From Candidatus Aquidulcis sp. (GTDB taxonomy: Bacteria; Chloroflexota; Anaerolineae; Anaerolineales; UBA4823): DNA of 34,584 nt. Made by a program: the position numbers and the translations under genes. Below are positions 9,810 through 29,580 of this stretch, one piece after another. Under the pieces are notes generated by a model. The model was given only the letters and a program-made list of their open reading frames with translations. It searched no databases and had not been told where the DNA came from. Position 1 is the first letter of the stretch. Each line of letters starts with the position of its first letter. The DNA lies in contig DYIZ01000053.1 of assembly GCA_020723385.1 (NCBI GenBank), positions 2,647 to 37,230 of the forward strand. Reading direction: 5' to 3'.

Positions 9810-11162
9810 CTAAATACCTCGCAATTTTGGGTTGAAGATTCGGTCGAGCGCGAAGCCCACCATGGCAAAAGCCAGGCCCGTCAGCATCAAAATGCTCGAA
9901 GGCTCTAAAACCCAGTAATACTGGCCCTGGAACAGAGCGCCATTGGAGCGCGCATCGTCAATGATTTTGCCCCAGGTGGGGATGACGGGGTCGCCCAACC
10001 CGAGCACGGCCAGCGTGGCCTCCAGGAAAACGAAGGTGGGGATGACGTTGACCAGGGCCGGGATCAAAACGGGTATGATACGGGGGATCAGGTAGGTGAA
10101 TACAATCCGGGTGTTGCTAGCGCCATAAGACCGGGCGGCCTCGATATAAGCCGATTCTTTCACCTGGAGGAAGATCGCCCGGTAGCCCTTGATGCCTGCA
10201 CCAAAGACACTCAACAGGATGCTGGCTCCCAGCATGATCCAGATACTGCGCGAATACAATGTGCCTACCATGATGAGGAGAGGCAGGAATGGCAGGATCA
10301 TATTGACTTCGGTAACGCGTTGGATCAGCCCATCCAGCCACCCGCCAAACCAAACCCCGAGCGCAGCGATCACCATCGTGGTCAGAGTTGTGCCCAGCGC
10401 AGCCAGCAGTCCAAAAGACAAGGCAATGGGTGTGCCCCACAGCAAAGCCACCGTCAAATCACGCCGCTTGTGATCGGTACCGGCAAGCCCATACACCTGC
10501 CCGTGCATGACGAACTTGGCATCCAAATCTGCCCCTTCCTCGAAGACTGTCACGTGCAACCGCAGCTCGTATCTCCCCTTGAGGGGTGCGGGCGTTTCAA
10601 GGAACGGATCGGCAAACAAGCCCTGCTCGGGCGGCTGATTCTCGAGGTTCTTCCTCAGGCGCGTATCCTGGGAGATACGATAAGTCTCGGGGGCCTGGAT
10701 CTTCAAATCTTTGAGGGGAATCTCCCGGTTGTCGGGCGTCACCCAGGTAGCAGTGACGAACGGCGTACCGGATTGATAGATCGGCGTCATGTGAAGGGTC
10801 AAAGCCTGAGGAAACGTATCGTAGAGATACTCAAAGGCAAAGGTGATATCAATTACAGATTTACCGGATGCGCCTGTTGTAACCACTTTGGTTACCTGAC
10901 CGTTGGCATTATCTGCGTCTTCCAGGGTGTTGAGGATAATCGTCTCGGTAAGTTTCGTCTTTCGGAAGAAATTGACCCACACGGGCTGGGCATTCTTCGG
11001 AACATCTTGCACTTCTTCTTCTCCGCCTCGCCAGATGCGGATCGCCTCACTGTAGGGAATCGTGATAATCGTATAAATCGAAATTCCCAACAGGAGTGCG
11101 ATAATGACCAAGCCGGCAACCGCAGAGGGATAGCGCCTGATTTCAAGAATTCGATATTTCAT
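9810..11162 (-). CDS. ABC importer permease, DppC-like, with large external insertion
   Basis: This 450-residue inner-membrane permease is of the dipeptide/oligopeptide type. The first helix is at 13-35. A transmembrane core follows from about 235, after GTDHKRRDL (228-236), which matches the family's GTDxxGRD segment. The EAA loop that contacts the ATPase is EAARSYGASNTRIVF (341-355). Unlike ordinary DppC (about 280-300 residues), about 185 residues (40-225) lie between helix 1 and the core, predicted outside and beta-rich. The start overlaps the stop of the preceding permease (ATGA), so both are made together. It probably works with the lipoprotein binding protein upstream. Confidence 0.9.
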   Translation of the reverse strand: MKYRILEIRRYPSAVAGLVIIALLLGISIYTIITIPYSEAIRIWRGGEEEVQDVPKNAQPVWVNFFRKTKLTETIILNTLEDADNANGQVTKVVTTGASGKSVIDITFAFEYLYDTFPQALTLHMTPIYQSGTPFVTATWVTPDNREIPLKDLKIQAPETYRISQDTRLRKNLENQPPEQGLFADPFLETPAPLKGRYELRLHVTVFEEGADLDAKFVMHGQVYGLAGTDHKRRDLTVALLWGTPIALSFGLLAALGTTLTTMVIAALGVWFGGWLDGLIQRVTEVNMILPFLPLLIMVGTLYSRSIWIMLGASILLSVFGAGIKGYRAIFLQVKESAYIEAARSYGASNTRIVFTYLIPRIIPVLIPALVNVIPTFVFLEATLAVLGLGDPVIPTWGKIIDDARSNGALFQGQYYWVLEPSSILMLTGLAFAMVGFALDRIFNPKLRGI

Positions 11163-12313
11163 ACTCGCCTTCCTTCACTACCGATTTTTACCCGGGGATC
11201 AACGAGCGTATAAATAAATTCGAGCAAGAACACTGTAATTGCCAACAGATAGGCGTAAATCACCGTTGAGCCGACGATGACGGGTGTGTCGAACAATCCA
11301 ATGGCCTGGAAAGTCAGCCGTCCAAGTCCCGGCCAGTTGAAAATCGTCTCCAGAACGATTGCGCCCTGCCACACGGTGATCAACGCCAGGGCGAAGTTGG
11401 TGATGATTACGGGCAACGTTGGGCGCAGAATATAGCGCCGCTCGATGTCCCGCGATGACAATCCCTTGGCCTTCGCCATATCCACGTAATCTTCGCTGGA
11501 GTAGATCAAGAAAAATGTGCGCCAGGCATACACATTGCCAAAGATGGTGCTGAGCAACAACGCAAAAACTGGCAGAACAAGATGCTGGCACAGGCTCAAA
11601 AAGTAGTTGATAGGGGTATCCGGCGGGGGTGCGGCGACCATGCCCCCATAGGGCAAAATGCCAAATTGCGCCGCGAAGATCAGAATTAAAAACAACCCAT
11701 AGAACCACCCTGGAGCTGAAGAAGTGGGCGACAACGTGATAATGACACGATCCCAGAAGCTGGCATACTTCCTGGAAAGCGCCAGGGCGAAGAAAATACT
11801 GAGAAAGAAATTCAAGAAATTTTCGGTTGCGAATAAAACCAGGGTGGACGGCAATCGCTCCAGGATGATCCGCCGCACCTGCCGGGAACCGCCATCGCTG
11901 TTCATGTAAAGGGCGCGTCCCAGGTTGAGGGAAAGCGCATTGGTGAGAAAACGCACACTGCGCACCATAAATGGCTGATCCAGCCCGGCGCGGTGTTCTG
12001 CCATGCGGGTTATATCGGCAATCCGTTGTGCGCGCACATCCGCGGCGAGGAGCTTGAAGGAAGGATCGTTCAGCACCTGGGTGGCAATTTGTTCCTGGAT
12101 TTGCCCGCGCTGAATTTGGTCAACGTATCCGCCCATATTGGCAACGAGGATAGTCAGGTAAACCCCTACGACAACCGTGAAGAAAAGCACTACGGCCTTG
12201 ATCCCCATAAATTTGATGACCCGAGAGATGGAACTCAGCACAGGGTTAACCCGAACAGACACTTCGGCTTTAACGTGAACCGGTATCGTTGAATCAGCCA
12301 TGGGATTACTCAC
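11159..12313 (-). CDS. ABC importer permease, DppB-like
   Basis: This permease of the peptide/nickel/oligosaccharide class has 384 residues from a GTG at 12313, or 380 from an ATG at 12301. Helix 1 is near 38-60. The EAA loop reads DYVDMAKAKGLSSRDIERRY, followed by conserved C-terminal helices ending in VDPRVKIG. The external loop after helix 1 is long (about 90 residues). Neither start has a strong ribosome site; the ATG at 12301 is slightly better placed after a GTGAG. It follows the binding-protein gene with a 93-base gap that contains a stable hairpin, a common way to lower permease expression relative to the binding protein. Confidence 0.9.
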   Translation of the reverse strand: MSNPMADSTIPVHVKAEVSVRVNPVLSSISRVIKFMGIKAVVLFFTVVVGVYLTILVANMGGYVDQIQRGQIQEQIATQVLNDPSFKLLAADVRAQRIADITRMAEHRAGLDQPFMVRSVRFLTNALSLNLGRALYMNSDGGSRQVRRIILERLPSTLVLFATENFLNFFLSIFFALALSRKYASFWDRVIITLSPTSSAPGWFYGLFLILIFAAQFGILPYGGMVAAPPPDTPINYFLSLCQHLVLPVFALLLSTIFGNVYAWRTFFLIYSSEDYVDMAKAKGLSSRDIERRYILRPTLPVIITNFALALITVWQGAIVLETIFNWPGLGRLTFQAIGLFDTPVIVGSTVIYAYLLAITVFLLEFIYTLVDPRVKIGSEGRRV

Positions 12314-12406: not shown

Positions 12407-15025
12407 TTATTCGGAGATAAACTCCACAACCGCGAAGCTGGGAAGGCTGACTTTGAGTGAAACAACTGCCACCTCCATTTTGTTCGATCCAGCTTTGAGC
12501 AAAGCGGTTTGTTCTTTGGTGAGGGTGATGCGCCACAACCCATCTTCGACAGCCTCAGCCTCGCCAATGACCACCAGCTTGCTATCATTATCGAATAGCA
12601 GATACTTCACCTGCCCGATATCGGCCATCGGGTAAGGATTGCCTTCGAACGTCACTTCCACATCGAAAGTAACCTCATCACCAATTGCGATGCTGTTCGG
12701 GCCAGTCAGAGCAACTTCGGCAATTGGGGGTGTGCCAAAGTCAATCCATTTGTCGGCCAGATCGGCAAACTGCGGATTCGATTTGAGCAGCACAGTGCCC
12801 TCGATCGGGAAAACCTTGTCCATGTAGTACGGACCAGTCCCTACCCAGAAATGCCCATGGCGGCGGTACCATTCCTGCAGGTTGGCCCAACGGGTGGCAG
12901 CTTCCTCGGGAGTGACATACTGACCTAAAACCGAAGGATAGGGAATGTAGCTCTCACTTGCTGCTTGATCCATATATTTGGCTAAGATTTCCAGGCTTGG
13001 CCCGCCGATCATGTTGATCGAGTCGGTTTGTAAAATATCGGCCTTGCTTTGCGTGAACGCCAGCTCTGAGTTCGTTTCGGCCAGAATACCAGTTCCAATG
13101 GTGTGCCATGCGCCCTGACCAAATGCGTAGAAGGGGAACATCCACGTGGCGTAGTTATTGACCATTGCCTCAGCGTCGAGCGAGTAGGCGTCATCGTAAA
13201 TCTCGACGATCAACGGATTTTCCTGAACAATGCGGATACCCTTGAAGTGAGACTGGAACGACAGCAGGGCGGGGACCTGCGACTCATCGTAGAGCGCGCT
13301 GGCTTCCTTGGCAGGGTCCCAGTTAAGGATCCAGGCGAGCACAATATCGGCCAGCGAGAATTGACTGCCATCGTGCCATTGGACATCATACAGATCGGGC
13401 GGGAAGTAAACGACCATTTTAGTTCTGGCCGTCACAGTGTCGGTGGAGGTGTAGACCTCACCCACCGTGATAAAGCGCTGTTCGGCCGCGTCCCAATCAG
13501 CCCAGGCATCGGCAGGCACCTCGATCTCGGGTACAAATTCCAATTTCATCCAATCGTAGGTGCTGGCAATGGGCAATCCATCCACTGCGAAAACTTCCGC
13601 CCGCTCGATTCGCTCCGGCCAGTACAGACCGGTGTACGGATCTGCCAGGACAGCCTGGTCGCCGGTGGCCTTCATGATCATCTGGTCGAACACCTGGTTG
13701 CTGCCGCCGAGCGGGTTCCAGTTTTCGGTCAAGATGCTGGCATTGGCCAGGGTCATCGAACCGCCTTCCACACCATCTCGACGGATTGTGTAAGACCAGA
13801 GATCTGCACCCTGGATGCCGCCAGAGAGATCAGCCACGACTTTGACATCGGGCTTGAAGGGAGAGAAGCTCAACCCGTCCACCAGCCAGAAGCGAGCGCC
13901 TTCGAGCATAGACAATTCGAGCGCCCGCCGGAAAAGTTCATCGCGCTCTTCCAGAGTATCGAAGAGGTTGTTGCTCAACCGTGTGCAGATCTCATCGTAT
14001 TCCGCTGAAACCACATAAGACTGCCACAGAGGATTGGTCATGCCGCGATTGGTGTGATAGAACTCGAAATTGCTGCCCTGGTCACGCGTGATCTGGGTGG
14101 TAATCCAACCGCCGGTATAGAGATGCCATTGCCCGTCATTGGGGTTGCCTTGCCGCCAGATTGGCGCAGCTTCGGCCGCCGTTTTGTAGTTACGCGTGAC
14201 CGTGAAACCGATGGTTTCCAACTGATTGGAGATATAGTCGCCGATTTCGAGACGCTCGTCTTCGGTGCGGATGAGGAAGATTAGCTCGACCGGTTCATCG
14301 TTGAATTGCCATTTTCCATCGACCAGGGTAGCGCCAAGCTTTTGCATTTCCTCGGTGATGACGGCTTCGCCTTTCTCGGGATTGTAGGCGTAATAGGCTT
14401 CCAATTCGCGGGCTTTGTCAATATAGCGCGCGTAATCCGGGAATCCGCCCACAATGGGGAAAAGACGCGGCAATCCCAAACCGCCCATAATTTCTTCCGC
14501 GATGTAATTCCGGTCAATCATCCAGTTCATAGCTTCGCGGATCTTGGCAACCGAGAAGGGGTTGAGCTTGCCGGTGCCATCGAAGGTTGGCCCGACCGGG
14601 TTGAAAGACAATTCATCCGATGATCCGACGAAGGTGGTGTAGCCCAGGTCAGCGTTTGCCTGGACTGATGCGAACAATTCTGGATCATCCCACGAGAAAA
14701 CATGGGCATCCAGTTCGCCGGACTCGATGCGGGAGACACCCGCCTCACCTGATGGCTCTTCGACGATGACAATCGTATCCAGCCAACCGCCGCGGCGGGT
14801 AACCTGCTTTTCCGGCTCGGGAGTCGGTTCTTCGGTTGGGGCTGCCGCTTCGGCGGAGGGAGTCACCACAACGACTTTTTCGACAACCTGGGGGGTGCCC
14901 TGAACTTCCACAATCTCAGTAACCACCACAGTCTCGACGATTCTTTCAGGCTGGCAGGATGCCAGCAGCATACTGGCAATCATCACCAGCGACAGGAAAA
15001 TAAATAATTTATTGGTTTTCATCAT
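12407..15025 (-). CDS. ABC transporter substrate-binding lipoprotein (SBP family 5) with permuted lobe order
   Basis: This secreted lipoprotein binds peptides, sugars or a similar solute for the two adjacent permeases. Residue numbers count from the ATG at 15022; the ATG at 15025 is equally possible, with GAGGAG just upstream. The signal peptide ends at lipobox LASC (Cys23), followed by a Thr/Pro/Glu-rich linker to about residue 75. Residues 81-415 match the usual second half of family 5 proteins (IREAMNWMIDRNYIAEEI at 161-178). Residues 420-762 match the usual first half (VQWHDGSQFSLADIVLAW at 547-564; GTGPYYMDK at 728-736). A beta-sandwich domain ends the protein (765-871). Usual length is 500-600; this one has 871-872. 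No ATPase genes are nearby. Confidence 0.88.
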   Translation of the reverse strand: MMKTNKLFIFLSLVMIASMLLASCQPERIVETVVVTEIVEVQGTPQVVEKVVVVTPSAEAAAPTEEPTPEPEKQVTRRGGWLDTIVIVEEPSGEAGVSRIESGELDAHVFSWDDPELFASVQANADLGYTTFVGSSDELSFNPVGPTFDGTGKLNPFSVAKIREAMNWMIDRNYIAEEIMGGLGLPRLFPIVGGFPDYARYIDKARELEAYYAYNPEKGEAVITEEMQKLGATLVDGKWQFNDEPVELIFLIRTEDERLEIGDYISNQLETIGFTVTRNYKTAAEAAPIWRQGNPNDGQWHLYTGGWITTQITRDQGSNFEFYHTNRGMTNPLWQSYVVSAEYDEICTRLSNNLFDTLEERDELFRRALELSMLEGARFWLVDGLSFSPFKPDVKVVADLSGGIQGADLWSYTIRRDGVEGGSMTLANASILTENWNPLGGSNQVFDQMIMKATGDQAVLADPYTGLYWPERIERAEVFAVDGLPIASTYDWMKLEFVPEIEVPADAWADWDAAEQRFITVGEVYTSTDTVTARTKMVVYFPPDLYDVQWHDGSQFSLADIVLAWILNWDPAKEASALYDESQVPALLSFQSHFKGIRIVQENPLIVEIYDDAYSLDAEAMVNNYATWMFPFYAFGQGAWHTIGTGILAETNSELAFTQSKADILQTDSINMIGGPSLEILAKYMDQAASESYIPYPSVLGQYVTPEEAATRWANLQEWYRRHGHFWVGTGPYYMDKVFPIEGTVLLKSNPQFADLADKWIDFGTPPIAEVALTGPNSIAIGDEVTFDVEVTFEGNPYPMADIGQVKYLLFDNDSKLVVIGEAEAVEDGLWRITLTKEQTALLKAGSNKMEVAVVSLKVSLPSFAVVEFISE

Positions 15026-15071: not shown

Positions 15072-15126
15072 CCCAGATTTGGGGTGTGTGGGAGTGCTAT
15101 GCACTCCCACACACCCCAAATCTGGG
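15072..15126. repeat. Perfect 26-bp inverted repeat with 3-base loop
   Basis: Positions 15072-15097 and 15101-15126 are exact reverse complements around TAT. It is GC/GT-rich and lacks a T-tract. Flanking bases continue the symmetry imperfectly (GGAAT on the left, ATTTCC on the right). It lies in the leader of the binding-protein gene, between two smaller hairpins. Longer in-frame starts for that gene would translate this palindrome and are unlikely. Confidence 0.9.
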
Positions 15127-15129
15127 ACA

Positions 15130-15150
15130 TTTCCCGCCGAGGACGGGAAA
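15130..15150. repeat. Third hairpin of the triple set
   Basis: TTTCCCG (15130-15136) pairs with CGGGAAA (15144-15150) around a 7-base loop. On the plus strand a T-rich stretch follows at 15155-15168, so it could act as a weak plus-strand terminator. On the minus strand it opens the folded leader of the binding-protein gene. Confidence 0.6.
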
Positions 15151-15921: not shown

Positions 15922-18900
15922 ATGGCAGGCTTGTTGAAATTATTATGGAAGTTATGGATTGCCGTTTGCCTGGGCGCATTGACATGCACGCCTCGGGTGA
16001 GCGCGGCTGGCAATATCCCATCAAGTGATCCGTCAGCGGTAACCCCTCCCATCAAATTCAAACACCTGACACTCAAAGATGGATTATCGCAAAGCACAGT
16101 ACAGACCATCCTGCAAGACAAGCTGGGGTTTATCTGGTTCGGCACGCAAGATGGCCTGAATCGTTTCAATGGGTATACTTTCACAGCTTTCCGCCCTGAT
16201 CCCAAGGATCCTTATAGCCTGACCGATCGCTGGATCAACGATATGGTCGAAGACCCGGCCGGCGTGATCTGGATTGGAACTCAAGGTGGAGGGTTAAACA
16301 GCTACGATTACAAAACCGGGCGATTTACCCATTACGAGCATGATTCCAATAATCCCGATAGTTTGATCGGGAATGATATCCTCACCCTGTTGGTTGACCG
16401 CACCGGCACACTGTGGATAGGCGCCACCGAGGGGCTGGACCGCTTCGATCCTGAGCACAATCTCTTCGTCCATTATCAGAATGATCCTTCCGACCCCACC
16501 AGCCTGGTTAACAATAACATTCACGCCATCTACGAAGATCATGACGGTACGATCTGGGTGGGCACCGGGCATGGGCTGGATCGCCTGGACCGGCAAACGG
16601 GTACATTCACCCATATTTCCACCGAAGGCAGCGATGGCGGATTGACCTATTACAACATTCAGGCGATTTATCAGGATAGCCGGGGTGATCTATGGGTGGG
16701 AACCAGCTACGGGCTGAACCGGTTATCCCCCGGCGCTTCGAAATTCGAACATTTCGTTCCAGATGCAAATGATCCAAATAGCCTGAGCCACACCTTTGTC
16801 AGCGCGATTCTGGAAGACAAGCAGGGCGTGCTATGGATAGGAACATCCAATGGGCTGAACCGGTTCGACCGCGATAATCAACACTTCATCACTTACTACC
16901 GTGAACCCGGCAACTCCGATAGCCTGACCGACGCGACCATTTCATCCCTGTATCTCGATGAGGAAGGCTTATTGTGGATCGGCACTTTTACCGGCGGGGT
17001 CAATATCCTGGATCAGGGGAAAATAAAATTTACCCATTACAAGAACAACCCATTCGACGCCGCCAGCATCAGCCCAGGCGGCATTTTCGCGATTTCCGAA
17101 GATCAGCAAGGTTATCTCTGGATTGGCGCTTACGGGAGCGGCCTGAACCGACTAGACCGGGCGACAGGTGAATTCCTGCACTACCGCAATGACCCCAATA
17201 ATCCCGACAGTCTGCAAAACGATTTTATTTACAGTGTTCACGTGGATCTCAAGGGTACAGTCTGGGTAGGAACCGAAATGGGATTGGACGAACTCGATGT
17301 CAGTACCGGGAAATTCACCCATTACTGGCATGATCCCATGGACCCTCTCACCTTGGGAAGCTTTACGGTGCTCGCCGTCCTGACCGACAGCCGAGGGATA
17401 TTATGGCTGGGTACCCGCGATGGGCTGGATCGCTTCAATCGAAAAAATGGACAATTCATCCATTACCAGCAGGATCCCCAAAACCCTACCGGTATCAGCG
17501 CAGGATCGGTGATCTGCCTGTTCGAAACGCGCCAGGGAGACCTTTGGCTCGGAATGCTAAACAGCGGGCTTAACCGGTTAGACCGGGAGACCGGCCAGTT
17601 CGAAAACTTCCGCCATAATCCCGACGATCCCTACAGCTTGAGCGATGATACTGTTTTAGCCATCCACCAGGATTCGCAAGGCGCACTTTGGTTAGGAACC
17701 GGCAATGGATTGGATAAATTCGACCCCGATACCGGCGTTGAGAAGCGTTTTACCATAGATGACGGCCTGCCTAACAACGTGATCTATGCGATTGTCGAGG
17801 ATGACCAGGGCGGGCTGTGGTTGAGCACCAACAACGGCATTTCCCATTTCGACCCCTACACCGAGATTTTCGAAAATTTCGATGAGGGCGACGGTTTGCA
17901 AAGCCGGGAGTTCAATATGCATTCGGCCATCCGCACCCAGGACGGCACGATCGCCTTCGGCGGAGTCAATGGGCTGAATTTGTTCAACCCGATGAATATT
18001 CAATCCAATCCTTATGTTCCCCCTGTGGTTCTGACCAGCCTGACCCAAGGCGGGCAGCCGTTCGCGGCCAATCAAACTGCTGAGACCGTCGAACAGATCA
18101 CCTTGCGTTGGCCCTACAACTACTTCGAATTCGAGTTTGCCGCTTTGAGCTACGCCGAATCAGAACGCAACCAATACACCTATTTCTTGGAGAATTTTGA
18201 CACTGGCTGGTCCCCGATAGGCACCCGCCGTTTCGGGCGTTACACGAACTTGCCAGGCGGCGATTATAAGTTACACATCAAAGGCTCGAACAATGATGGC
18301 ATCTGGAACGAGACAGGGGTCTCGATTGCGGTGCTGGTCATTCCGCCGATCTGGCAAAACTGGTGGTTCCAGGCCAGCCTGGTGCTTCTGGTCGTCAGTG
18401 TAGCTTATTCAGGCTATCAACTGCGTATGCGCAGCATCCGAAACCACAACCGCAAGCTTGAACACCAGGTAATGGAGCGTACCCGAGAGATCGAGCGGCT
18501 ATTCGAACAAACCAAAGAGTTGGCTGTCATCGAAGAACGCAACCGGCTGGCGCGTGATTTACATGACAGCGCCAAACAAAAGGCATTTGCCGCGCTGGCG
18601 CAATTGGGGACGGCCCGCGGCGTGATCCAGCGGGATGCCAAGAATGCTCAGAGTCATGTGGACGAGGCGGAGAATCTAGTCTACGAAGTCATTCAAGAAT
18701 TGACTTTTCTGATCCAGGAGATGTACCCACTGGCCCTGGAAGAGAAAGGGCTGGTCACCGTCCTGCGGGAGTATCTCTACGAGTGGGAAAACCGCACTGA
18801 AATCCAGGTTAACCTGAAAGTAGCCGGTGAACGGCGTTTATCCCTGCAAATCGAGCAGGCCTTGTACCGCATTGCTCAAGAAGGGTTAGCCAATATTGCC

Positions 18901-19194
18901 CGGCATAGCCAGGCAACCCAGGTAAACATCAACCTCGATTACTCGAATGGAACTGTCCACATGAGCGTCTCTGACAATGGCCGCGGTTTCGATCTGGCCC
19001 ATAAGCCCCCGGGAGTCGGTTTGCGATCCATGCAAGAACGGGCAAAGATGATCAAAGGGCAGATGAAAATCGAAGCTAATCCCGGCCAAGGCACCCATAT
19101 CCAAATCAACGTGCCGGTGACAACACCATCACCTGCTCCCAACGGCAATAACGGAGGCCCCAATGGCCCAACCAAACACCATTCTAATAGTTGA
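15922..19194 (+). CDS. Membrane sensor histidine kinase with two seven-bladed propellers, Y_Y_Y domain and HisKA_3 core
   Basis: This 1090-residue kinase has a signal sequence (residues 4-29). I count 14 repeats of the type DxxGxxWIGTxxGLNRxD, enough for two seven-bladed propellers outside the cell. A Y_Y_Y beta-sandwich (about 730-805) and one membrane helix (about 812-834) follow. The cytoplasmic part has a HisKA_3 dimerisation helix with His881 in ARDLHDSAK and an ATPase domain with NIARHSQA and DNGRGF. There is no fused receiver or DNA-binding domain. The ATG at 15922 directly abuts the AGGAG site, so a TTG at 15931 or 15934 may be the real start. The response regulator gene overlaps its 3' end. 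The ligand is unknown; relatives in Bacteroidetes sense glycans. Confidence 0.93.
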   Translation: MAGLLKLLWKLWIAVCLGALTCTPRVSAAGNIPSSDPSAVTPPIKFKHLTLKDGLSQSTVQTILQDKLGFIWFGTQDGLNRFNGYTFTAFRPDPKDPYSLTDRWINDMVEDPAGVIWIGTQGGGLNSYDYKTGRFTHYEHDSNNPDSLIGNDILTLLVDRTGTLWIGATEGLDRFDPEHNLFVHYQNDPSDPTSLVNNNIHAIYEDHDGTIWVGTGHGLDRLDRQTGTFTHISTEGSDGGLTYYNIQAIYQDSRGDLWVGTSYGLNRLSPGASKFEHFVPDANDPNSLSHTFVSAILEDKQGVLWIGTSNGLNRFDRDNQHFITYYREPGNSDSLTDATISSLYLDEEGLLWIGTFTGGVNILDQGKIKFTHYKNNPFDAASISPGGIFAISEDQQGYLWIGAYGSGLNRLDRATGEFLHYRNDPNNPDSLQNDFIYSVHVDLKGTVWVGTEMGLDELDVSTGKFTHYWHDPMDPLTLGSFTVLAVLTDSRGILWLGTRDGLDRFNRKNGQFIHYQQDPQNPTGISAGSVICLFETRQGDLWLGMLNSGLNRLDRETGQFENFRHNPDDPYSLSDDTVLAIHQDSQGALWLGTGNGLDKFDPDTGVEKRFTIDDGLPNNVIYAIVEDDQGGLWLSTNNGISHFDPYTEIFENFDEGDGLQSREFNMHSAIRTQDGTIAFGGVNGLNLFNPMNIQSNPYVPPVVLTSLTQGGQPFAANQTAETVEQITLRWPYNYFEFEFAALSYAESERNQYTYFLENFDTGWSPIGTRRFGRYTNLPGGDYKLHIKGSNNDGIWNETGVSIAVLVIPPIWQNWWFQASLVLLVVSVAYSGYQLRMRSIRNHNRKLEHQVMERTREIERLFEQTKELAVIEERNRLARDLHDSAKQKAFAALAQLGTARGVIQRDAKNAQSHVDEAENLVYEVIQELTFLIQEMYPLALEEKGLVTVLREYLYEWENRTEIQVNLKVAGERRLSLQIEQALYRIAQEGLANIARHSQATQVNINLDYSNGTVHMSVSDNGRGFDLAHKPPGVGLRSMQERAKMIKGQMKIEANPGQGTHIQINVPVTTPSPAPNGNNGGPNGPTKHHSNS

Positions 19195-19816
19195 CGATCA
19201 CGAAGTCGTTCGTAAAGGGATTCGCGGCTACCTGGAAACACTGCCTGAATTCGAGGTCATCGGCGAGGCTACCTGCGGCGAGGAGGCAGTCGAGTTGGTT
19301 GCCGAGCACATTCCTGATGTGGTGCTCATGGATTTGATCATGCCCGGCATGGATGGCGTGGAAACCACCCGGCGCATCAAAACCATCAGCCCGCGCACGC
19401 AGGTTGTCGTGCTGACCTCCTATCACGAGGATGCGCACATCTTCCCGGCGCTCAAAGCTGGCGCTATCTCGTATATCCTCAAAGACATGAAAATGGAGAA
19501 GCTGGTCGAGGCGCTGAACCGGGCCGTGCAAGGCGAAGTGACCCTGCACCCGCGGGTCGCGTCGCGCGTACTGCAAAATCTGCGCGGCGATAACGCCGAG
19601 GACCCCCAGCTCTTCACCGACCTGACCGAGCGCGAGCTTGAGGTGCTCAAGCTCATCGCCAACGGCCTGTCCAACAGTCAGATAGCCCAGAACCTCACCA
19701 TTAGTGAGAATACAGTCAAAGGGCATGTCAGTAATATACTCAGCAAGCTGCACCTGGCGGATCGCACTCAGGTGGCGGTATACGCCTGGCAAAGAGGCAT
19801 CGTGAAGCGCGATTGA
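19163..19816 (+). CDS. NarL/LuxR-family response regulator
   Basis: This 217-residue cognate regulator has an N-terminal receiver with acidic pocket Asp11-Asp12, phosphoacceptor Asp57, Ser/Thr at 85-86 and Lys107. It ends in a LuxR-type helix-turn-helix (about 150-212) with LTERELEVLKLIANGLSNSQIA and NTVKGHVSNIL. The gene starts 32 bases inside the kinase gene in another frame, with GGAGG five bases before the ATG, so the pair is translated together. His-Asp phosphotransfer from the kinase should control its DNA binding. Target genes are not known; the next gene is convergent. Confidence 0.95.
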   Translation: MAQPNTILIVDDHEVVRKGIRGYLETLPEFEVIGEATCGEEAVELVAEHIPDVVLMDLIMPGMDGVETTRRIKTISPRTQVVVLTSYHEDAHIFPALKAGAISYILKDMKMEKLVEALNRAVQGEVTLHPRVASRVLQNLRGDNAEDPQLFTDLTERELEVLKLIANGLSNSQIAQNLTISENTVKGHVSNILSKLHLADRTQVAVYAWQRGIVKRD

Positions 19817-27547: not shown

Positions 27548-27600
27548 GATGATGAGACAATAAATAACCAGCGCATCAAATGTTTGTCGGAGGAGGGAGT

Positions 27601-29580
27601 ATGGCCCAGATGGATTATCTGGACTTCGACTTACAGATCGAACGTTCGGGGGATAATTACTGCGCCCGGGTGTTGGATTCACCGGCGGGCCAGGCCAGCA
27701 TCGAATTCAGCCTGCCCTTTTCGGATCTCGAGATCGAAAATTTCCTCCTGCGGGCGGGCCGAACCCGCCGGGGTGTGCGCCGCCTGCAATCGCCAGAGAT
27801 AGAGGCAGCGAAAAACTTCGGGGGCACTCTCTTCCAGGCCATCTTCGACCGTGATGTCAAAACCTGCCTGGCCGATAGCCTGACGGCTGCGCAACAACAG
27901 GGCGCCGGGCTGCGCCTGCGGCTGCGCTTTGCCGGAACACCGGAGTTGTTCGACCTGCCCTGGGAATATCTGCACAACCCCGCGCTGAACCGATTCATCT
28001 CTCTCTCGAATGAAACCCCGCTTGTACGCTATATTGACTTGCCGGAAAAAATCAAGCCGCTGGAGGTGCGCCCGCCTTTGAAAGTATTGGTGATGATTGC
28101 CAGCCCCGGCGACTATCCCACTCTGGATGTGGCAGAGGAATGGACGCGTCTGAAGGCATCTTTACGTGACCTTGAACAGCGCGGCCTGGTCGTGATCGAG
28201 CGCCTGGAAACCGCCTCGCTGGCGGCCTTGCAGCGGCAATTGCGCCAGGGTGAGTATCACATTTTTCACTTCATCGGGCATGGCATGTTCGATCAACAAA
28301 CCCAGGATGGTGTTCTGCTGCTGGAAGATGAGCGCGGACGCGGCCGGGCAGTCAGCGGGCAATACCTGGGTACACTCCTGCACGACGCCCGCACCCTGCG
28401 GCTGGCAATCTTGAATGCCTGCGAAGGGGCGCGCACTTCCCGCAGCGATCCCTTCGCCGGCGCAGCCCAGAGTCTGGTGCAGCAGGGTGTCCCCGCGGTG
28501 ATTGCCATGCAGTTCGAGATCACCGATCAGGCTGCCATCACCCTGTCGCGAGAATTCTATGCTGCCCTGGCAGATGGTTATCCAGTAGATGCCGCTTTGG
28601 TCGAAGCCCGCAAGGCTATCTTTGCCCAGGGGAACGACATCGAGTGGGGAACGCCCGTGCTGTACCTGCGCGCCCCAGATGGCCGCATTTTCGATGTCTC
28701 ACAGCAAGCTGAGCGGCCCGCGGCGAGAGCAATCGAGGCGCCATCCCCCGAGAGCACATCGCCAGCCAAGACCACCGTATCACGCCGTCGCCTGCCAAAA
28801 TGGGCCTGGGCAGTCACAGCAGGCGCGTTGGTTGTGGCAATCATCCTGTTGGCATCTACCCTTCCCAGCTTATTCGCGGGAAAAGTGGCATCCCACACCC
28901 CCACTGTGACCAGTGAGCAGGCTGTTACCAACACGCCGACCACCACCAGCGCGCCGGTGAGCAGCGGCAGCCCTGCTCTCTATGATGATTTCAACAACCC
29001 GGACTATGCCGGTAGTTTCGACCCCTTCCGTTGGACTTATTTCACCGCATCTCCCAACAAGGCTTTCCAGCAGGATGGCGTGCTGGTCATCACCCAGGGC
29101 AAAGAAAAACCCTACGAGATCACCCGTCTGGTTGCGCTGGATTATTCCGATTACATTTTGAACGCCCCAACCTTCTTTGAGGCCAAAGTCAGGCTCAGCC
29201 CAGAGGAACATGCCGGCGTCGCAGAAATCGTTCTTCTGGCGACCCTGTCTGACTCGACAGAGTGGTACGCAGCGTGCGTTTTGAGCGAGACTCTCGCCAA
29301 TTGTATGGATGCGCTCCTGCCTTCTGGCGATAACACCTATGAGGCAGGCGGTGTGCCACACGCCTATGGGAATTGGTATACCCTGCGCATCGAGATAGAT
29401 CCCGCCACGATGATGCTCACCTACCAGGTAGATGGACAACGAATCGGCATGCACATACCGGCAGATGCCGCTGCGCTGAAAGGAGTAAAATTCAACTTTG
29501 CCCTGGGTGTATTGGGGGAATCAGATAGCGGGACTGTCACCGCCTCTTTTGACGATGTGAGCGCTGGTCCGATCAAATAA
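27601..29580 (+). CDS. Membrane-anchored CHAT-domain (caspase-like) protein with external concanavalin-like domain
   Basis: This 659-residue protein starts at the ATG at 27601, with a strong GGAGGAGG site just upstream; an ATG at 27580 lies before that site. Residues 1-150 form an N-terminal domain often found before CHAT. Residues 160-360 are a CHAT peptidase domain with catalytic His227 in FIGHGMF and Cys274 in LNACEGAR. A Ser/Thr/Pro linker and one membrane helix (401-422) follow. Residues about 450-658 form an external beta-rich domain (YDDFNNP, FEAKVRLSP, WYTLRIEID) like LamG/concanavalin lectins. The protease lies inside and a possible glycan or envelope sensor outside. It is a single-gene unit between two exporter clusters. 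The substrate is unknown. Confidence 0.88.
   Translation: MAQMDYLDFDLQIERSGDNYCARVLDSPAGQASIEFSLPFSDLEIENFLLRAGRTRRGVRRLQSPEIEAAKNFGGTLFQAIFDRDVKTCLADSLTAAQQQGAGLRLRLRFAGTPELFDLPWEYLHNPALNRFISLSNETPLVRYIDLPEKIKPLEVRPPLKVLVMIASPGDYPTLDVAEEWTRLKASLRDLEQRGLVVIERLETASLAALQRQLRQGEYHIFHFIGHGMFDQQTQDGVLLLEDERGRGRAVSGQYLGTLLHDARTLRLAILNACEGARTSRSDPFAGAAQSLVQQGVPAVIAMQFEITDQAAITLSREFYAALADGYPVDAALVEARKAIFAQGNDIEWGTPVLYLRAPDGRIFDVSQQAERPAARAIEAPSPESTSPAKTTVSRRRLPKWAWAVTAGALVVAIILLASTLPSLFAGKVASHTPTVTSEQAVTNTPTTTSAPVSSGSPALYDDFNNPDYAGSFDPFRWTYFTASPNKAFQQDGVLVITQGKEKPYEITRLVALDYSDYILNAPTFFEAKVRLSPEEHAGVAEIVLLATLSDSTEWYAACVLSETLANCMDALLPSGDNTYEAGGVPHAYGNWYTLRIEIDPATMMLTYQVDGQRIGMHIPADAAALKGVKFNFALGVLGESDSGTVTASFDDVSAGPIK

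Follow-up and report, generated by a model that had tools for sequence, protein, structure and literature searches.

A family 5 ABC substrate-binding protein with its halves in circularly permuted order, and its relatives in archaea and bacteria

The locus and its permease genes

The window, that is, the whole stretch of 34,584 nucleotides analysed here, in whose positions all coordinates without a contig or locus label are given, carries on its minus strand the gene of a family 5 substrate-binding protein, followed by genes for an OppB-like and an OppC-like permease (permB and permC; Table 1). The length of the binding protein is counted from the ATG of the table; a second in-frame ATG at 15130, upstream of it, would lengthen the protein by 35 aa.

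Table 1. Coordinates of the binding-protein gene, the parts of its product, the downstream permease genes and the type-II pair described below.
Feature	Position	Strand	Evidence
Permuted family 5 substrate-binding protein gene (P0001, 872 aa)	12407..15025	-	ORF, translation, PF00496, AF2
Signal peptide (residues 1-24) containing the lipobox LLASC; probably a lipoprotein anchor	14954..15025	-	read from sequence
Low-complexity linker from anchor to folded part (residues 25-77)	14795..14953	-	read from sequence
Old C-terminal half, now first (mature 1-342)	13769..14794	-	7FI3 347-755; PF00496 148-361
Fusion point of old C-terminus and old N-terminus (around mature 342-345, ..VEGG..)	13760..13771	-	structural alignment
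Old N-terminal half, now second (mature about 343-690)	12725..13768	-	7FI3 from residue 34; phmmer
Added C-terminal Ig-like beta-sandwich (mature 691-795)	12410..12724	-	AF2 strands, structural matches
OppB-like permease (BPD_transp_1), downstream of binding protein	11159..12313	-	Pfam 9e-29
OppC-like permease with large extracytoplasmic insert preceding core	9810..11162	-	Pfam 8.3e-16, residues 265-448
Type-II pair, free protein and kinase-fused, side by side	L004:1808-4615 and L004:4929-6605		

No ATPase gene was found beside the window operon, so the ATPases would have to come from elsewhere, for example from the operon of locus L002. Most relatives of the binding protein are encoded together with the full set of BPD-type permeases and ATPases, and nearly all bacterial loci have the order binding protein, permB, permC and one or two ATPases. 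About 225-250 aa precede the core in 63 of the 65 permC proteins encoded beside binding proteins of this family, as against about 70-105 aa in most canonical permC, and the long permC proteins among the remainder include several that stand beside permuted binding proteins left unlinked by the script. This OppC insert is a plausible docking partner of the permuted binding protein.

Divergently from the binding-protein gene, a propeller (Reg_prop/Y_Y_Y) two-component histidine kinase and a LuxR-type response regulator are encoded at 15922-19816. Just upstream of the binding-protein gene (15072-15126) lies an inverted repeat whose 26-bp arms match perfectly around a 3-nt loop; its arm occurs 46 times in the genome with at most 3 mismatches, mostly as paired hairpins, and the reversed control 0 times, so that this repeat is a dispersed REP/MITE-like palindrome. 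The window also encodes a CHAT-domain (caspase-like) protein of 666 aa at 27580-29577.

Order of the halves in sequence and in the predicted structure

The sequence-only reading of this gene had described a family 5 binding protein with reversed halves, and had proposed a profile search with the halves taken separately. Each half matched PF00496 (SBP_bac_5) and a solved OppA, in swapped order, as the reading had anticipated. PF00496 matched the whole protein with an E-value of 1.6e-23 (83.8 bits, against a cut-off of 32.4) in two stretches, the first placing profile positions 148-361 on residues 82-323 and the second placing positions 26-151 downstream in the same frame (genome coordinates C160:15359-16033), with one copy of each half. 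Canonical full-length proteins of the same genome gave a single colinear stretch, for example profile positions 2-365. The motifs were also located where they had been reported, the second-half motif NPFSVAKIREAMNWMIDR in the first part of the protein, and the first-half motifs WHDGSQFSLADIV and GTGPYYMDK..LLKSNPQF in the second part.

The sole phmmer match among PDB sequences was the canonical oligopeptide permease A of Thermococcus kodakaraensis (7FI3, E 8.5e-29). Query residues 142-315 aligned with 390-574 of its chain and query residues 548-748 with 105-301, and the i-Evalues of these two swapped segments (1.3e-16 and 4.1e-11) are far from chance. Because they are swapped on 7FI3, the order is reversed against a solved structure, beyond the evidence of motifs. 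The usual succession of N-half and C-half is typical of SBP_bac_5 without strictly defining it, and is reversed in the window protein both in sequence and in the model described below, for which reason the protein is treated here as a permuted variant and not as an ordinary representative of SBP_bac_5. The family profile A3 again matched 7FI3, at 1e-34, and its other matches were binding proteins of the ordinary type; no already permuted family member was present among these PDB sequence matches, which does not in itself prove its absence from the PDB. Against the NCBIfam models (Opp4A and other equivalogs) the best score of the window protein was 17.4 bits, with a cut-off of 650. When the protein was rotated in silico and scored against a profile built from 25 canonical proteins it gained little, from 36 to 45 bits; this weak gain is due to the distance of the 25-protein profile, so that the case for this permutation rests on 7FI3.

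An AlphaFold2 model of the mature protein (795 residues), built from a 76-sequence alignment, had a mean pLDDT of 94.2 and a pTM of 0.90, and its predicted fold is the bilobed cluster-C fold of SBP_bac_5. The structural aligner used (VIA) preserves sequence order, and hence only one half is visible in each comparison. Mature residues 1-342 were superimposed on 347-755 of 7FI3 (Z 27.0, rmsd 2.3, 336 aligned residues) and also on 207-507 of DppA (1dpp, Z 21.1). The second part (mature 343-795), folded by itself with a pLDDT of 94.4, aligned over its fragment residues 3-345 with 7FI3 from residue 34 onwards (Z 29.7, rmsd 2.6, 300 aligned); since its final aligned pair lies at 7FI3 736, the C-terminal region of the canonical protein is the partner of at least the last strand. 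A sequential Foldseek alignment covered about half of the protein, with TM scores of 0.37/0.40 to 7FI3, as expected for a permuted fold.

Residue 342 of the model stands opposite 7FI3 755, and mature residue 345 (fragment residue 3) opposite 7FI3 34. According to the model, the two parts thus complement each other as pieces of a single OppA that is cut at about 346/347, with its old ends joined within about 2-3 residues, which agrees with the proposal that the natural junction between the halves had become the new ends. A beta-sandwich had likewise been placed at the end of the protein, and it is present in both AF2 models, where fragment residues of about 346-453 matched Ig/macroglobulin/PKD-like structures with Z of about 10-12. 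Two arrangements had been named as speaking against a permutation, namely two complete binding proteins in tandem and the usual lobe order; the model consists of one bilobed protein plus the sandwich, with the lobes reversed, and both arrangements are excluded as far as a prediction can exclude them.

Relatives, proposed working and rival explanations

When 84,980 species were scanned, each represented by one genome, 280 relatives were obtained, of which 80 were kept. Most belonged to Chloroflexota, with others in Bipolaricaulota/Acetothermia, Halanaerobiaceae, Symbiobacterium and other Bacillota, and in archaea (Bathyarchaeota, L067, and Calditenuis, L084); in the archaeal phylum of L067 the C-half model matched at E <= 1e-20 in 92 of 151 sampled genomes. 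The survey of homologues suggested by the sequence-only reading gave the permuted order, hereafter type I, in all 141 ORFs with both halves recognised, the C-half coming first in 87/87 bacterial and in 54/54 archaeal ORFs, the latter including a few rows of one gene fetched twice. Six type-I copies are present in the genome of the window. Type I is a large and apparently undescribed family of archaea and Chloroflexota bacteria. Sulfolobus SSO1273 and Aeropyrum OppA, archaeal OppA proteins that have been studied biochemically, may belong to it.

In a midpoint-rooted FastTree phylogeny comprising 135 proteins, all 88 bacterial proteins grouped in a single clade (support 0.99), which lay inside the archaeal branches. 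The simplest reading of these sequences is that the family probably originated in archaea and entered bacteria once, and this reading rests on the midpoint rooting. A C-terminal membrane helix was found in 27 of the 30 complete archaeal members, and the strict lipobox pattern in 55 of the 87 bacterial relatives. The sandwich is missing from three permuted proteins of genome G258 (L118 and L119; 740-777 aa), which end just past the old mid-point, and it is thus dispensable. A divergent protein of Bathyarchaeota (L094:1381-3486, 701 aa) has PF00496 141-351 ahead of 4-185, followed, as read from its sequence, by an Ig-like stretch and, at the C-terminus, a membrane helix; its swap may go back to the same ancient event as type I or to another one.

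Our main reading, to which we assign a probability of about 0.88, is that the window gene encodes a membrane-tethered, extracytoplasmic, circularly permuted binding protein of an Opp/Dpp-type ABC importer. The chain would begin in the old loop between N-half and C-half (after NPxYW), traverse the old C-half, pass through a very short link from the old C-terminus to the old N-terminus, and run along the old N-half to the old mid-point, with the Ig-like sandwich last. The predicted fold would be the same bilobed clamp as in OppA, with the ligand held in the cleft; as in other members of the family, the lobes would close on the ligand and deliver it to the adjacent OppB/OppC permease, while the signals at the N-terminus suggest tethering as a lipoprotein. 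Such a protein may have arisen when an OppA gene was duplicated and the outer parts were lost, and permutation would be cheap here because the old chain ends adjoin. A possible gain is a new N-terminus from which the protein could be hung from a lipid or a kinase.

Family 5 proteins bind peptides, sugars, nickel or heme. By analogy with 7FI3, the closest solved relative, which holds a pentapeptide according to the title of its entry, an oligopeptide may be the ligand, a first guess with even odds; an oligosaccharide is a possible second guess.

Among the other explanations, the one that survives best, though we consider it improbable, is that the halves stem from two different binding-protein genes and were joined in swapped order, as the authors of the Tp0684 study considered for that protein (PMC4990184); however, 7FI3 is the closest solved relative of both halves, by sequence as well as by structure. 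Slightly less probable is that the permuted protein works chiefly as a sensor or surface protein and not as part of an importer. No permeases adjoin the paralogs in L001 and L003, a two-component kinase is encoded divergently beside the window gene, and type-I proteins fused to kinases occur both in the genome of the window (L001:11755-15363, 1202 aa, with the arrangement kinase, membrane helix and permuted binding protein) and in another genome (L055:5621-9367, 1249 aa, a Ser/Thr kinase fusion with Pkinase at 35-287 and PF00496 at 462-703). Nevertheless, OppB/OppC permeases follow the window gene and nearly all of its relatives, mostly with ATPases. A head-to-tail fusion of two tandem, perhaps truncated, binding proteins, each forming its own clamp, is highly improbable: permutation usually goes via such a state and the protein is long (872 aa), but each half is present once, which rules out complete tandem proteins, the parts cover complementary ranges of one OppA, and the model of 795 residues forms one fold predicted with confidence. 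That an assembly chimera or annotation artefact united unrelated pieces has a negligible probability, because, fragmented as the genome is (239 contigs), the recurrence of this order in 141 archaeal and bacterial ORFs, drawn from many independent assemblies, the conserved operon and the six copies within the window's genome rule it out.

A second permutation and comparison with known proteins

In the genome of the window, contig C168 encodes two further proteins with PF00496 63-367 ahead of 1-58, one a free binding protein (559 aa), the other a 936-aa transmembrane Ser/Thr kinase that carries a like binding domain outside. In these type-II proteins positions 153-530 of a DppA model were matched first. 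Rotating the two proteins in silico raised their scores from 194 to 227 and from 172 to 212 bits with the profile of 25 canonical proteins; rotation did not raise the score of a canonical control. A type-II junction profile, run over 301 sampled Chloroflexota genomes, gave a two-humped distribution, with full-length matches (135-314 bits) in 37 genomes and partial matches below 86 bits in the others, as expected from ordinary binding proteins. All loci from L099 to L117 with the frame read end in LR.GVkFHdG..DVv..FLNa, and a permease gene comes next in most of them.

Types I and II are alike in being permuted family 5 proteins that occur, within the same genome, both free and fused to transmembrane Ser/Thr kinases; a further kinase fusion suspected in genome G294 (a 933-aa frame) was not confirmed. 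In contrast, type II (L004, L099-L117) lacks the sandwich, is far nearer to DppA (240 bits), and is cut at PF00496 58/63 (about 153 of the DppA model) rather than near 148. Since the cut points differ, type II represents a separate permutation event. What the sequence-only reading had claimed for the type-I protein stands, but the large archaeal and bacterial family, the non-universal sandwich and this second permutation were beyond its view. A wider scenario, which we offer as speculative and rather doubtful, is that at least two independent permutations, type I in archaea and then bacteria and type II in Chloroflexota, re-positioned the ends for an anchor or a kinase, and that type I co-evolved with a new extracytoplasmic domain of OppC, which would change the docking geometry.

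Family 5 binding proteins, whose domain order is taken as fixed, rank among the best-studied transport proteins. The window protein shares its profile family, fold and Opp-type operon with the cluster C proteins OppA, DppA, NikA and AppA, but its halves are rotated and its ends moved to the mid-chain loop; 7FI3 itself has the N-half first and the C-half second, and its N-half is not followed by an Ig-like sandwich. Tp0684 (MglB-2) of Treponema pallidum is a naturally permuted, tethered lipoprotein shared across bacteria, for which the name 'Type Ic / Cluster Bc' was proposed and for which anchoring was suggested as the cause of the permutation (PMC4990184). Like the window protein it is a permuted, tethered ABC substrate-binding protein, whereas its cluster B (glucose/galactose-binding) fold, its family and its cut are different and point to an unrelated event. 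It is very unlikely that the window protein belongs to this cluster-B (periplasmic binding protein type I) group, given its profile match to PF00496 and, among the structural matches listed, its cluster-C partners. No report of a permuted family 5 protein, and no experiment on a type-I member, was found in open-licence PMC text, the literature covered by the search, and the novelty of such proteins is accordingly provisional, a permuted cluster-B protein (Tp0684) being already known.

Permuted order is the rule in a family that spans most sampled genomes of an archaeal phylum (the 92 of 151 above) and part of Chloroflexota. Domain databases give such proteins partial matches, so their second half is easily taken for unknown. 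The two cut points, with receptor kinases for each, provide natural material on how permutation affects anchoring, docking and signalling. At one further locus (L111:1456-3453), a branched-chain-amino-acid-like domain (LivJ-type by eye) precedes a type-II permuted binding protein in a putative fusion.
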